Positions 22,481-32,002 of a stretch of 46,346 bases of DNA are shown here, one piece after another. A program made the translations under genes and the position numbers. The stretch's first letter is position 1; every line of letters starts with the position of its first letter. Source of the stretch: an uncultured Chlorobiaceae bacterium. GTDB lineage: Bacteria > Bacteroidota > Chlorobiia > Chlorobiales > Chlorobiaceae. Location of the stretch: positions 1 through 46,346 of the forward strand of contig CAJAIK010000100.1 in assembly GCA_903939765.1 (NCBI GenBank), given 5' to 3'. The notes under the pieces are model-generated. The model was not told where the DNA came from, ran no database searches, and was given only the letters and a program-made list of their open reading frames with translations.

Positions 22481-24163
22481 TTACTGCAGCCTGTTCAGCG
22501 CACTGACCGTTGCCTTGATTGAGGCCAGACTGATATTTGAATCAATCCCGGCACCAAAGGAAACCCGTCCATCGGCACAGCCAATCTTGATATAGGCTAT
22601 GGCAAGAGCTCCGGCACTGCGTCCGATAGCATGTTCGGCATATTCGTCAACACTGAAATCGAGACCACTCTCCCTGACAAATCCCTTGACAAATGCATCA
22701 AGAGGACCGTTCCCCTGTGCCTCAAAGCTGAACTCCCGCTCCCTGGTTTGCACAACACAGGTTATGGTGGTATCCTCCTCATCCTGACTCCGAGGTTCCT
22801 CGTCATCCCAACTGATATGGCACTTCTTGAGGGTAACCGGCTCCCGGAGCTTCACATACTCTGCATGAAACAGTTCATGAATCTGCTCCACAGACAACTC
22901 AACACCGCTTGTATCGGCAACGGCCTGGACCGCTTCGGCAAAATCCGGCTGCATCCACTTCGGTATCTGGAGACCATACTCTTTCTCAAGCACATAGGCC
23001 ACTCCACCCTTACCCGACTGGCTGTTGATACGAACAATAGCCTCATAGTTGCAACCAACGTCCTCGGGGTCGATCGGCAGATAGGGAACCGCCCATACAC
23101 CACCCGGTGAGAGCGGTTGCGCTTTCATCCCCTTGCTGATTGCATCCTGGTGCGAACCGGAAAATGCGGTATAGACCAGCTCCCCCGAATAGGGGTGACG
23201 GGGATGAATGTCCATGCGGGTACAACGGCGGTAGACCTCGCGAATCCTCGGCAGATCGGAAAAATCAAGTTCAGGATCGACCCCCTGGGTGAAGAGGTTC
23301 AGTGCCATGGTCACCACATCCATGTTACCGCACCGCTCGCCATTGCCGAACAGTGCACCCTCAACCCGGTCAGCTCCGGCCATCAACGCCAATTCAGCAG
23401 TCGCCACAGCCGTACCACGATCATTATGGGCATGAACGCTGATCAGAACGGCATCACGCGCTTTAATGTTGCGGCAGAACCACTCAATCCGGTCGGCATA
23501 AATATTTGGCAGCGACATTTCAACCGTTGACGGCAGATTCAGAATAATTTTTTCATCCGCCGAAGCACCCCAGGCATCCATCACCGCATGACAGACCTCA
23601 AGTGCATAGTCGAGCTCCGTACCGGTAAAACTTTCCGGACTGTACTCGAAACGGATACCGGCATTGCCGCACTCATCCTTGAGGCGACGAACAAGCGCGG
23701 TACCTTCTATAGCAATAGCCTTGATCTCCTCCCTGTTTTTGCGAAAAACCACATTCCGCTGCAGAGTCGATGTCGAGTTGTAGAGATGCACGATGGCTCG
23801 TTTCGCCCCGCTTATGGCAGCAAACGACTTGCGAATCAGATGCTCCCGCGCCTGGGTCAACACCTGAATGGTGACATCTTCAGGAATAAGATGTTCCTCT
23901 ATCAGCCGGCGCACAAATGCAAATTCCGTTGCAGAAGCTGATGGAAAGCCGACCTCAATCTCCTTGAACCCAATGGAAACAAGAAGCTGAAACATGGAGA
24001 CTTTTTCCTCAACACTCATCGGCACCGGAAGCGCCTGATTACCGTCACGAAGATCCACACTGCACCATATCGGCGCTTTCGTGATGCTCTTGTCAGGCCA
24101 GCTCCTTGCGGAAATTGCAACCGAAGGGTACGCTGTGTATTTCTGATACTTCATCTTTTTCAT
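22481..24163 (-). CDS. leuA: 2-isopropylmalate synthase, long form
   Basis: A 560-residue enzyme that condenses acetyl-CoA with 2-oxoisovalerate, the committed step to leucine. The HMGL-like catalytic barrel opens with VDLRDGNQAL (metal-binding aspartate), and later has EVGFPSAS and HAHNDRGTAVA. The C-terminal LeuA regulatory domain (about 425-555) has FEAQGNGPLDAFV and HAIGRSAGA blocks and normally binds leucine as feedback inhibitor. The length and opening match the long type found in actinobacteria and Chlorobi. The start has AAGGA seven bases upstream. It is preceded by a leucine-rich leader peptide and a hairpin that suggest attenuation. Its leftward neighbour is the metal importer. Confidence 0.95.
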   Translation of the reverse strand: MKKMKYQKYTAYPSVAISARSWPDKSITKAPIWCSVDLRDGNQALPVPMSVEEKVSMFQLLVSIGFKEIEVGFPSASATEFAFVRRLIEEHLIPEDVTIQVLTQAREHLIRKSFAAISGAKRAIVHLYNSTSTLQRNVVFRKNREEIKAIAIEGTALVRRLKDECGNAGIRFEYSPESFTGTELDYALEVCHAVMDAWGASADEKIILNLPSTVEMSLPNIYADRIEWFCRNIKARDAVLISVHAHNDRGTAVATAELALMAGADRVEGALFGNGERCGNMDVVTMALNLFTQGVDPELDFSDLPRIREVYRRCTRMDIHPRHPYSGELVYTAFSGSHQDAISKGMKAQPLSPGGVWAVPYLPIDPEDVGCNYEAIVRINSQSGKGGVAYVLEKEYGLQIPKWMQPDFAEAVQAVADTSGVELSVEQIHELFHAEYVKLREPVTLKKCHISWDDEEPRSQDEEDTTITCVVQTREREFSFEAQGNGPLDAFVKGFVRESGLDFSVDEYAEHAIGRSAGALAIAYIKIGCADGRVSFGAGIDSNISLASIKATVSALNRLQ

Positions 24164-24183: not shown

Positions 24184-24228
24184 CTTTAAACGAAGAAAGC
24201 CACCTACCCTTGAGAAGGTGGCGGCTTT
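24184..24228 (-). promoter_or_regulatory. Putative leucine attenuator hairpin upstream of leuA
   Basis: On the minus strand, CCACCT pairs with AGGTGG across a ten-base loop. The stem extends by AAAG/CTTT after a three-base bulge (24196-24228 on the plus strand), then an interrupted T-rich run CTTCGTTT follows. Its 5' arm can instead pair with GGAGGTG (24266-24272) at the end of the leader peptide gene, as CACCTTC, giving seven pairs with one wobble. These two mutually exclusive structures are the classic terminator/antiterminator arrangement. The T-run is imperfect, so strength is uncertain. Confidence 0.6.
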
Positions 24229-24257
24229 AACAATGTTCACTCTGGCTGAAAAACGAA

Positions 24258-24344
24258 CTAAAAGACACCTCCCTCCGGGGCCACGATGCGAAGAAGCAAC
24301 AGGGCCAGTGACAGCAGAAGGTTCTTGTGATTCATTGCACGCAT
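24258..24344 (-). CDS. Leucine leader peptide of leuA
   Basis: A 28-codon frame, ATG 24344 to TAG 24258-24260. It contains NLLLSLALLLLRIV, that is eight Leu codons within ten positions, followed by Ile and Val codons. It ends 94 bases before leuA. Such peptides sense charged tRNA-Leu: slow translation at the Leu run lets the GGAGGTG segment just downstream form the antiterminator, while fast translation to the stop codon covers it. There is no strong ribosome site at ATG 24344; an in-frame ATG at 24335 is an alternative start. Confidence 0.75.
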   Translation of the reverse strand: MRAMNHKNLLLSLALLLLRIVAPEGGVF

Positions 24345-24518
24345 GGTCAGCACAGAAAGTAAAAAAAATCATTAATCGGCTTTGATTGAAAATAAAAAAA
24401 TTGCTGATGCATGCAATGCAAGCCGAAATATTTTCTGAAACCCTGAAGCCATCAAATAAGATCCAGCTTCATAGAAAATCCCCACTCAGTTCCATATTAC
24501 ATATTAAAAAAAGATATC

Positions 24519-26192
24519 TTAACGAGGTTGAACTGACCTGTTCCTTATGATCCGCAGAATATCATTTTTGTTCCCGGCTCGAAGCATCATACTGCGCCAC
24601 TGGCTGTCAGCAGCCATTTTACTGATGGCTCCAAGAAGTCTGACATGACTGTTCGCATCTGAGAGTGGAGAGAGCATCAGGAATATTATCCGGGCGGTTT
24701 TGCTTGATTTCTGATCATAAATACCAATTTTGTTGACACCGATGGCAATAACCGGTTTGTTCAGATTTTCGAGTCTTGCATGAGGAAGAGCAATTTCATC
24801 CCCGACAAATGTACCACCCTGTTTTTCCCGTTCAAGGAGGCTATGGAATGCACTTCCCTCATCAATTTCTGAATTTACCAGGCAACATTCGTGAAGAAGC
24901 TCACGAAAAGCATCCTCCTTTTCCAGAACACGCTCCCACAAAATGACTCGTGCATTCCTGATCGGTTCTTTCCACTCATTCTGCAACTGCTTTGATGGCG
25001 AAAGAGTCTCCTTGATACCGGAAAAATGTTGCGCAGGCGTTTTTGGTTCTTTCACAGTATCCGCTTCCCTTGTATCGAGCACAATCACGCTGATACCCCG
25101 GCATTGGCTGATCAATCGTTCAATAATGGTCTGATGCCCCTGAATGCGCTGCCAAAAAGGCAGTTTTCGTCCTGGGTTACCGATAATAATATGCCCTACC
25201 CGGTACTCTCTGGCAAACTGAAGAATAGTTTTAACCACATCATCACCTTTGTAGGTAAATACCGTTGCACCAAGCTGCTGGGCCAGTGCAAGAGTGTTGG
25301 AATGCATTCGCTGTACCCTGGCATCAATATTGACCGGGCTGTCGGAAAGGGTCTCAACATAAACCGCATACCAGTTTCTGTTCAGCCGCCCTGCTATACG
25401 CGATGCATATCTTAGAATGGTTTCACCGTTCCGGGTGTGTGAACTGAGACAAACCATAAGCTGATCAGGATTTAAAGCAGATTCATCATGGAACTGGCTA
25501 CGCAGCTTCGAATCAAGCTGTGCCGCAAGTTCCCTCAGCGTCAACTCCCGGAGCTGCTCAAGGTTTTCCGGTTTGAAAAAGTTGGACAGTGCCGCTTCCG
25601 AATGACCGGGAACAGAGACGTTCCCTTCACTCAAGCGCAGCCTGAGATCATCGGTCGTCATATCAACATTGACAAGCTGATCGGCCAGCGACAACATACG
25701 ATCGGGGACACGTTCCCTGACCTTTACACCGGTTGCTTGTTCTACCGTTTCATAAAGGCTCTCGATATGCTGGATGTTCAAGGTCGAAATCACATGAATA
25801 CCGGCAGCAAGAATTTCTTCAATATCTTCATAGCGCCTGGAATTTCTGCTTCCGGGAATGTTGGTATGCGCAAGTTCATCGACAAGCACAACAAATGGAC
25901 GGCGCTGGAGGATCGCATCGATATCCATTTCGGTAATTTCGATACCACGATACATCAGGATTTTACGCGCCATGATTTCGAGACCAGAAAGAAGAACTTC
26001 CGTATCCTCTCTTTTATGGGTTTCTACGAGTCCGACAACAACATCAATGCCACTCTCCTTGAGACGACGCGCCTCCTGCAGCATCTGCCATGTTTTCCCT
26101 ACTCCGGCACAGTAACCAAGATATATTTTCAGTTTACCGCGTTGTGAGCGCTGAATAAGACGAAGAAAACTGTTGGCTCGGTTGCTCTCCAT
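24519..26192 (-). CDS. KdpD N-terminal domain-USP-PTS EIIA fusion, no kinase domain
   Basis: A 557-residue soluble protein. Residues 15-225 are a KdpD-type sensor domain with Walker A GYCAGVGKT (26-34), a Walker B-like VVLVDELAHTN (101-111) and STLNIQHIESL. Residues 245-373 are a universal-stress-protein domain. About 425-553 is a PTS EIIA type 2 (EIIA-Ntr-like) domain with the phospho-acceptor block ALPHAR (H471). The four membrane spans, HisKA and HATPase of true KdpD are missing. EIIA-Ntr is known to control KdpD and TrkA in enterobacteria, so fusion to a KdpD sensor suggests potassium or phosphotransfer input. It is last in a four-gene leftward group and probably regulates the adjacent kinase or transporter; that is inference. 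Confidence 0.88.
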   Translation of the reverse strand: MESNRANSFLRLIQRSQRGKLKIYLGYCAGVGKTWQMLQEARRLKESGIDVVVGLVETHKREDTEVLLSGLEIMARKILMYRGIEITEMDIDAILQRRPFVVLVDELAHTNIPGSRNSRRYEDIEEILAAGIHVISTLNIQHIESLYETVEQATGVKVRERVPDRMLSLADQLVNVDMTTDDLRLRLSEGNVSVPGHSEAALSNFFKPENLEQLRELTLRELAAQLDSKLRSQFHDESALNPDQLMVCLSSHTRNGETILRYASRIAGRLNRNWYAVYVETLSDSPVNIDARVQRMHSNTLALAQQLGATVFTYKGDDVVKTILQFAREYRVGHIIIGNPGRKLPFWQRIQGHQTIIERLISQCRGISVIVLDTREADTVKEPKTPAQHFSGIKETLSPSKQLQNEWKEPIRNARVILWERVLEKEDAFRELLHECCLVNSEIDEGSAFHSLLEREKQGGTFVGDEIALPHARLENLNKPVIAIGVNKIGIYDQKSSKTARIIFLMLSPLSDANSHVRLLGAISKMAADSQWRSMMLRAGNKNDILRIIRNRSVQPR

Positions 26193-28258: not shown

Positions 28259-30253
28259 TTACACCTTGACCGGCAAAATCACAAAAGGAATACCGCGTAC
28301 ATAAAGATTTCTCTGTATGGCGAAAACAGTGTAGTTGTGCAACCAGCGATCCATCAGCGACTCTTTGATAAAAACAAGCTGGCCGCCGAAAAACACAATA
28401 TTGGGAAATTTTTCCGTAATCGCCGGAACAAGCTTGTTGACCTCTTCAACCACGTCAGTTCCAAGAGAAAAATATGCCTCGGAATAGTACCCATGATCTT
28501 TCATATAGTCAACATACTTGGACGTTTCGTTGCGCACAAAACTGCCGAGATTCTCTATTTCATCAGCTCCCTTGAAGTTCCCCGCATCAATGGAACCGAT
28601 CTCGACAAAAACATAATTTTTATAACTATCGCCGAACAACCTGAAAACACTGAAGAGGGTATGAAGGCCGAGCCCATTAAAGCCGTTCACCAGAATCGCG
28701 GCGGTTTTTGCCTTGGGATCAAAAACCGGCAGCAGGCAAGCGCGGTCACTCTCCTTGTCATGTACATCCGAGCCTGACAGCACCGCGGCCTCAACAATAA
28801 CATCAAGCCGTTTCAGAGTGTGGGTGGTACTGTTGTAATGACCTTTGATAATAAATGCGGCCATAACAAGAAGGCCGGTTATCACCATGGTAACCCACCC
28901 TCCTTCATTAAACTTGAGAACCAGTACCGAGATCAGAATAAAGGTTGTCAGCATCAGGCCGATACCATTAATGAGAAGTTTCCAGCGCCATTTTTTTTCT
29001 GATTCTCGTTTTGTCCACCAATGCCGTACCATCCCGAGCTGTGACAGGGTAAAGGTGATAAAGACATTGATACTGTACAGGACAATCAGAAAATCAACCG
29101 ACCCATTTGAGGCAAGCATCATAATCAGTGCGGCTGTTCCCATGACAAGAATCCCCTTTTCCGTCACAAGCCGGTCACTCAACATGGCAAAACGCGCAGG
29201 CAGCCACTTGTCGAGCGCCATATTTGCCAGTACCCTTGGTCCATCAAGAAAACCAGTCTGTGCAGCAATAAAAAGCAGCACAGCTTCAGAAAACAGCGTT
29301 ACCCAGACAAAGCCAACACCATAAAACCCACCCCATGACGCAGTAATCCCCTGAAAAAGAATCGCGTTCAAGGTCTTGCCTGGCATATCCCGGACATCAA
29401 AAAGAATGTAGGCAAGCATAAGCCCCATAACCGTGACAGAAAGAGAAATCGCCATATAGCGCATGGTTTTCTTTGCCGTCGCAACTTTCGGGTCACGCAA
29501 AACAGGAAGACCATTGCTGACCGCCTCAATACCGGTAAAGGTGCCAGCACCCAGACTGTAAGCCTTCATGACAAGAAAAAGCACCCCGAAAACCCCCAGT
29601 GTATGGAATGACGTGGTAAGCTCACGCCCTGTTTCATGATAAACTTTGCCAAAATCCGCAAGATGGGAGACCACTGCATAAACAATAACAATGAGGTGGG
29701 TAGCAACGAAGAGCAGAAAAACAGGAACGAGGGGCATAACAGCCTCCTTGATCCCTCGAAGGTTCAGGATGAGCAAGCCTATTACCCCGATAACAGCAAA
29801 CCAGAGCTTGAAGCCGAAAAATCCTGCTGGCAAAAAACTGAAAATCGCATCTGCCCCGCTGGCGATTGATATGGTAATGGTCAGCACATAATCGATAAGA
29901 AGCGCACTGCCTGAAATAACACCCATCTGGGGAGAGAGCAGTTTGCTGGCAACCAGATAGCCGCCACCACCGGAAGGGAACAGTTCAATAATGTGCGAAT
30001 AACTTGAAGCAATGATGAGAATGGTAACTCCAGTGGCCAGGGCAACAAAAATCCCAAGTGTAGGATGGCCCTGAAGTGCCTTGAAGGCCTCTGGCGGGCC
30101 ATAGCATGAAGATGATAGTCCATCTGAACCAAGTCCTACCCATGCAAGAAAAGCGGTAAGTGCAAGCTGGTGAAAAATTCTGTGATCCCTGAAATCACGT
30201 GCACCACCAATAAAAAATGTTTTTAGCCGCCGAAATGCTTTATTCACTGCCAT
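28259..30253 (-). CDS. KimA-like APC transporter (probable K+ importer)
   Basis: About 664 residues from ATG 30253 (an earlier TTG at 30262 is less likely). An N-terminal APC-superfamily core of about twelve membrane spans has GLGSDGLSSSCYGP near the start and SSYSHIIELFPSGGGGY. A roughly 180-residue soluble C-terminal region begins after HYNSTTHTLKR. The GSDGLSSxxYGPEE-type opening and the cytoplasmic tail match the KimA (YdaO) potassium symporter branch rather than amino-acid permeases. Potassium as substrate fits the KdpD-type protein in the same group, but it has not been proved. The 182 bases upstream showed no convincing sigma-54 promoter. Confidence 0.82.
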   Translation of the reverse strand: MAVNKAFRRLKTFFIGGARDFRDHRIFHQLALTAFLAWVGLGSDGLSSSCYGPPEAFKALQGHPTLGIFVALATGVTILIIASSYSHIIELFPSGGGGYLVASKLLSPQMGVISGSALLIDYVLTITISIASGADAIFSFLPAGFFGFKLWFAVIGVIGLLILNLRGIKEAVMPLVPVFLLFVATHLIVIVYAVVSHLADFGKVYHETGRELTTSFHTLGVFGVLFLVMKAYSLGAGTFTGIEAVSNGLPVLRDPKVATAKKTMRYMAISLSVTVMGLMLAYILFDVRDMPGKTLNAILFQGITASWGGFYGVGFVWVTLFSEAVLLFIAAQTGFLDGPRVLANMALDKWLPARFAMLSDRLVTEKGILVMGTAALIMMLASNGSVDFLIVLYSINVFITFTLSQLGMVRHWWTKRESEKKWRWKLLINGIGLMLTTFILISVLVLKFNEGGWVTMVITGLLVMAAFIIKGHYNSTTHTLKRLDVIVEAAVLSGSDVHDKESDRACLLPVFDPKAKTAAILVNGFNGLGLHTLFSVFRLFGDSYKNYVFVEIGSIDAGNFKGADEIENLGSFVRNETSKYVDYMKDHGYYSEAYFSLGTDVVEEVNKLVPAITEKFPNIVFFGGQLVFIKESLMDRWLHNYTVFAIQRNLYVRGIPFVILPVKV

Positions 30254-30444
30254 AACGAACAATCCGAAAAAATTAATACCCGGATGAGGCTGCCTCGTTT
30301 TACGTCCGGATCAAAACAGAAACAGCAAACGGTTGCTGCCTGCCTTAAAATCACAAACATAGGGAACGGGAGGCATACGGCATATTGCGAAACACAAGGG
30401 CAGAAAAGAGCGCGCATTGAATTTTGCAAGGCGGCCAAAAAAAG

Positions 30445-31924: not shown

Positions 31925-31930
31925 TTTGTG

Positions 31931-32002
31931 CTCCGCGGGCAGGACTCGAACCTGCAACCCTGCGATTAACAGTCGCATGCTCTACCATTGAGCTACCACG
32001 GA
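31931..32002 (-). tRNA. tRNA-Asn (GTT)
   Basis: A 72-nt cloverleaf on the minus strand. Acceptor TCCGTGG pairs with CCGCGGA (one T-G pair), with discriminator G. The D stem is GCTC/GAGC and the anticodon stem TGCGA/TCGCA with loop CTGTTAA (anticodon GTT). The T stem is GCAGG/CCTGC with loop TTCGAGT. CCA is not encoded. A terminator follows and a plausible promoter precedes it. Confidence 0.97.

Follow-up and report, generated by a model that had tools for sequence, protein, structure and literature searches.

The leuA gene of this uncultured member of the Chlorobiaceae is very probably preceded by a leader-peptide transcription attenuator that would set leuA expression according to the supply of charged tRNA-Leu. 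Leucine attenuation at this position had been proposed in a sequence-only reading of the window, by which we mean the whole stretch of 46,346 nucleotides that was analyzed, and it is supported by conservation of the leader and by the better pairing of cognate segments across species, its function in vivo being a prediction. The source belongs to the genus Chlorobium and the named relatives of the leuA locus are Chlorobium and Chlorobaculum, in agreement with the proposed green sulfur bacterial host, and the downstream gene was rightly called leuA, as its product matches TIGR00970 above the cut-off. On the minus strand, a promoter-like pair, the leader open reading frame (ORF), a hairpin with a U-rich tail and leuA follow each other in this order. 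The features are:

24389-24416, minus strand: promoter-like pair TTGCAT, 16 nt, TATTTT (by eye)
24258-24344, minus strand: leader peptide ORF MRAMNHKNLLLSLALLLLRIVAPEGGVF, 28 codons plus TAG stop
24312-24336, minus strand: segment 1, covering the early part of the ORF with the first Leu codons; partner of segment 2
24291-24320, minus strand: control codons LLLSLALLLL, 8 Leu in 10 codons, codons 9-18 of the leader
24252-24282, minus strand: segment 2, end of the ORF to 6 nt past the stop codon, pairs with segment 1 or 3
24206-24227, minus strand: segment 3, comprising the loop and 5' arm of the terminator; forms the antiterminator with segment 2
24196-24228, minus strand: terminator-like hairpin, segments 3:4, -18.4 kcal/mol, z -4.95 against shuffles
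24188-24198, minus strand: U-rich tail UUUCUUCGUUU (direct reading)
22481-24163, minus strand: leuA, 2-isopropylmalate synthase, 560 aa (TIGR00970, 736 bits, cut-off 697)

The frame with eight Leu in ten codons is present as originally described, and the Leu block is directly followed by codons for Arg, Ile and Val. Chance is no explanation for this run: at least 8 Leu in 10 codons occurred in none of 54,696 short ORFs from 60 order-2 Markov copies of the window, and the leader ORF has the top Leu score among the short ORFs of the real window. No clear Shine-Dalgarno sequence precedes the leader start codon, and a strict sigma-70 scan did not pick up the promoter-like pair; a motif TTGC(A/T)...TAT(A/T)TT is found by eye at a similar distance from the leader in most aligned genomes. 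The leader stop codon lies about 95 nt from the leuA ATG in the source genome, and the Shine-Dalgarno sequence of leuA at about 24175 is located outside the terminator-like hairpin. The terminator tail of the source species, UUUCUUCG, is imperfect and most relatives carry UUUUUUCG; a simple terminator pattern scan did not report the hairpin at 24228-24196 in the source species. Further upstream, the window encodes at 24519-26192 (minus strand) a protein with an N-terminal KdpD-like domain and a PTS IIA/PtsN-like domain that lacks the kinase part.

Segments 2 and 3 can form a helix of 17 bp with about -21 kcal/mol (24282-24262 with 24227-24206), and the sequence GGAGGTG (24272-24266), previously suggested to pair with the 5' arm of the terminator, is indeed part of it. 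Antiterminator and terminator are mutually exclusive, as had also been claimed, because both use 24227-24206. Folding of the whole leader revealed in addition segment 1, which the sequence-only reading, limited to 2:3 and 3:4, did not contain. Since segment 1 pairs with segment 2, the leader has the potential for a complete 1:2/2:3/3:4 attenuator. It thus combines a series of end-product codons, a terminator before the gene, an antiterminator, a 1:2 pairing that excludes 2:3 and the corresponding geometry, as found in classical attenuators.

How widespread is this arrangement? Among 98 genomes of the order, 88 yielded a LeuA homologue; 86 upstream regions were taken, of which 83 from Chlorobiaceae (Chlorobium and Chlorobaculum) were long enough to judge. 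A Leu-rich leader is present in 79 of these 83 regions, in one case cut by the contig end, with leader ORF, Leu run and stop codon all retained; the conservation of the Leu run among relatives, by which the original proposal could be checked, therefore holds. Each of these 79 genomes has a single such leader, invariably at leuA. A covariance model found the same 79 genomes with one full-length match each (E 1.3e-12 or better), 63 of them by construction, because those 63 sequences were used to build the model. Weaker matches of the model elsewhere in the genomes were, as far as inspected, for the most part ordinary hairpins that follow groEL-like or tRNA genes. Outside the family, no such leader was detected at the closest leuA relatives, which are from Elusimicrobia (61%), Omnitrophota (58%) and Motilimonas/Marinomonas (about 51%).

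The leader is absent in four genomes (G063, G032, G023 and G085), of which the first three retain the terminator. This retention bears on the possibility that the hairpin merely terminates an upstream transcript, for example that of tRNA-Asn or another neighbor, the Leu-rich frame being there by accident. The terminator of G063 and G032 follows directly after the tRNA-Asn gene, and G023 also has a terminator without a leader, as this explanation would predict. Against it stand the frame, the Leu run, the position of the stop codon and two further helices, all kept in 79 genomes, the promoter motif that closely precedes the leader in most genomes, and the fact that no such leader is seen at the most closely related leuA genes from outside the family, so that we consider a mere upstream terminator very unlikely.

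In the fourth leaderless genome, G085 (L028), leuA is found directly after an apparent potassium-transporter-like gene, which by eye resembles the end of the window gene at 28259-30262, and both leader and terminator are gone. The window itself contains a tRNA-Asn gene at 31930-32002 (minus strand), and in G074 and G065 the attenuator is located directly downstream of a tRNA gene resembling it. As a tRNA gene of this appearance adjoins either an attenuator (G074, G065) or a bare terminator (G063, G032), the gene content that separates tRNA-Asn from leuA is variable.

Evidence for the pairings comes from a swap test, in which the stability of each species' own (cognate) segment partners was compared with that of partners shuffled between species, using 35 divergent representatives. 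Cognate partners paired better for 2:3 (-18.8 versus -17.3 kcal/mol, p=0.0002) and for the terminator 3:4 (p=0.0002), so that the covariation check suggested in the sequence-only reading turned out in favor of both helices, and the same was observed for 1:2 (-20.3 versus -18.9, p=0.0013). Within Chlorobium alone, 1:2 (p=0.0003) and 3:4 (p=0.0005) were significant and the p value for 2:3 ranged from 0.02 to 0.09 depending on the boundaries used. Within Chlorobaculum alone, with few representatives, only 3:4 was significant, and 1:2 and 2:3 were not (14 and 10 representatives). Control segment pairs were mostly null in this test; one of them, a1:c2, gave a signal (p=0.0016), and the a2:c2 hairpin, located between the stop codon and the terminator, received moderate support only (p=0.004).

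Moreover, when the columns were shuffled or the register was slid, the paired cells and the covariation score stayed below the real values, and in the case of the shuffles every one did so; this holds for 2:3, for 3:4 and for the core of 1:2. The 1:2 helix is formed by differing bases in the two genera, AACGAAC with GUUCGUU in Chlorobium and GUCAAC with GUUGAC in Chlorobaculum, and it reaches through the Leu codons, with 17-26 bp in the lineages compared. A tree-based covariation test of every column pair yielded no significant one, because phylogeny, with its two genera, outweighs other signals and the register of the helices shifts between lineages. Two other pairings were considered and rejected. 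A local hairpin of the last Leu codons with segment 2 was not supported by swaps within either genus, and we therefore favor the long-range 1:2 pairing; an apparently independent helix joining the ORF start to the region after the stop codon, which would form a pseudoknot with 2:3, corresponds to the base of 1:2.

How could the ribosome decide between these structures? Judging from the promoter motif, transcription would start some 35-40 nt before the leader ATG, and a ribosome would translate the leader. When Leu-tRNA is scarce, the ribosome is expected to stall in the Leu block and to mask segment 1, leaving segment 2 free to pair with the nascent segment 3, whereby the terminator would be blocked and leuA transcribed. 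When leucine is ample, a ribosome reaching the stop codon would cover segment 2, hairpin 3:4 would form and transcription would end before leuA. If the leader is not translated at all, 1:2 and 3:4 should both form and transcription should likewise end. The geometry of the leader is compatible with these steps, as the last Leu codon before segment 2 is at a median of 12 nt from the start of the segment-2 region used, and the leader stop codon is 3 nt beyond the end of that region. In a model with fixed ribosome footprints, a ribosome at the Leu block left 2:3 complete, with a median of 13 expected pairs, before segment 4 exists, and the terminator formed both with a ribosome at the stop codon and with no ribosome. 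When the complete RNA is considered at equilibrium, the terminator prevails over 2:3 in most species, and antitermination would therefore have to be kinetic. Stalling, termination and the response to leucine are predicted in this scheme, and the pairing potential and its conservation are drawn from the comparison across species.

A leader peptide could also act on translation, through ribosome reinitiation or another control of leuA translation and not through transcription termination. Leader ORFs can raise downstream translation (PMC4833913), and the LEU element at actinobacterial leuA was proposed to involve the Shine-Dalgarno region (PMC1262725). However, the distance from stop codon to ATG is about 95 nt here as compared to 10-11 nt in the former study (PMC4833913), and a U-rich run follows the hairpin, from which the leuA Shine-Dalgarno sequence is excluded, making an action on translation very unlikely.

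Attenuation by the RNA also accounts better for the leader than a functional small protein encoded by the short ORF, which we regard as highly improbable. The ORF with its Leu-rich stretch is conserved, as would be expected of such a protein, but the sequence outside the Leu block varies widely, the site entropy is on average much the same at all three codon positions and the C-terminus is in another frame in several species. More precisely, the peptide stops early in G076, G061, G033, G072 and G073, at a UAA inside CUCUAAGGGG, and the same bases are read in another frame as ...ALRGGAF in relatives. As the RNA segment is kept there and the coding is not, selection in this region appears to act on RNA pairing and not on the C-terminus of the peptide. 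Finally, a T-box or other ligand-binding riboswitch, as the structured leader before an amino-acid gene might suggest, is hardly credible, since no relevant Rfam match, T-box included, was found at E values up to 0.5-1.

By every feature tested, the leuA leader is, as judged from its sequence, a classical leader-peptide attenuator and thus of a known kind. The leu and trp attenuators of enterobacteria (leuL/trpL) consist of control codons for the end product, the alternative pairings 1:2, 2:3 and 3:4 and an intrinsic terminator before the first gene. Such enterobacterial leader-peptide attenuators were reportedly treated by Vitreschak in 2004. Control codons, the three pairings and the terminator are common to them and to the Chlorobiaceae leuA leader, whereas Rfam sees no sequence similarity between the two, segment 2 of Chlorobiaceae has its start within the ORF and the Chlorobium leader contains a longer Leu block than E. 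coli leuL.

The ilvD attenuator of Staphylococcus aureus also has a short Leu-rich leader and a terminator before a branched-chain amino acid operon, and mutants of this Leu/Ile-rich attenuator support a response to leucine; it differs in the gene, ilvD, and in an antiterminator that pairs with the poly-U tail (PMC5794164). The actinobacterial LEU element likewise includes a leader peptide ahead of leuA in which Leu codons form a run, but it has a pseudoknot and Leu codons paired with the Shine-Dalgarno sequence, in contrast to the terminator and classical segments of Chlorobiaceae, and attenuation was judged unlikely for it (PMC1262725). No LEU-type pseudoknot was seen in the window, where the hairpins end upstream of the leuA Shine-Dalgarno sequence. 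According to a paper of 2010, leader-peptide systems had been known from Proteobacteria and Actinobacteria alone until the Firmicutes case that is described there (PMC2965389). In the Bacteroidota, leader-peptide attenuation was proposed for amino-acid operons of Flavobacterium psychrophilum, a relative with the same proposed mechanism; the passage concerned names neither leuA nor Chlorobi (PMC9723704).

Rfam holds no family for the leuA leader. The original remark that such a system had not been described in Chlorobi stands for the open literature, in which no description of a leuA attenuator in Chlorobi was found, and is checkable only in part, the survey of Lopatovskaya, Seliverstov and Lyubetsky from 2010 being outside that scope. 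This survey is said to cover bacterial amino-acid attenuators on a large scale and may list Bacteroidetes/Chlorobi, and a claim of priority should therefore wait.

A second leader was found upstream of ilvD, which there precedes ilvB, in most Chlorobiales examined (L196-L208, L231-L290); in the source genome it is located upstream of position 19498 of contig C123 (L204). It often comprises 45-60 codons with an Ile/Val/Leu-rich stretch just before the stop codon, and the conserved hairpin following it pairs better in cognates than in swapped partners (p=0.0003). A weaker terminator-like hairpin overlapping the latter was not supported by the swap test (p=0.38). The ilvD leader is also present in G086 and G087, both without a leuA leader, which belong to a sister family that we read as the Chloroherpeton lineage. 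A search for Trp leaders at trpE and for His leaders at hisG gave none. It could be imagined that green sulfur bacteria have two branched-chain amino acid attenuators, one for Leu at leuA, restricted to Chlorobiaceae and acquired after entry of the gene, hence an independent origin of the classical design, and an older one for Ile/Val/Leu at ilvD that is shared with the sister family; we consider the arguments for and against this history evenly balanced. The source genome also encodes a second, distant isopropylmalate-synthase-like protein, 29% identical (contig C45, 2225-3748), and Leu synthesis may thus have two entry enzymes.

Taken as an attenuator, the leuA leader would, on strong comparative evidence, extend a textbook design to the phototrophic green sulfur bacteria, and the leuA gene to which this design belongs has no leader in its closest relatives from outside the family. 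For Chlorobaculum tepidum it provides a candidate leucine-responsive element. Together, the leaders at leuA and ilvD predict that both branched-chain operons would be sensed via tRNA charging.
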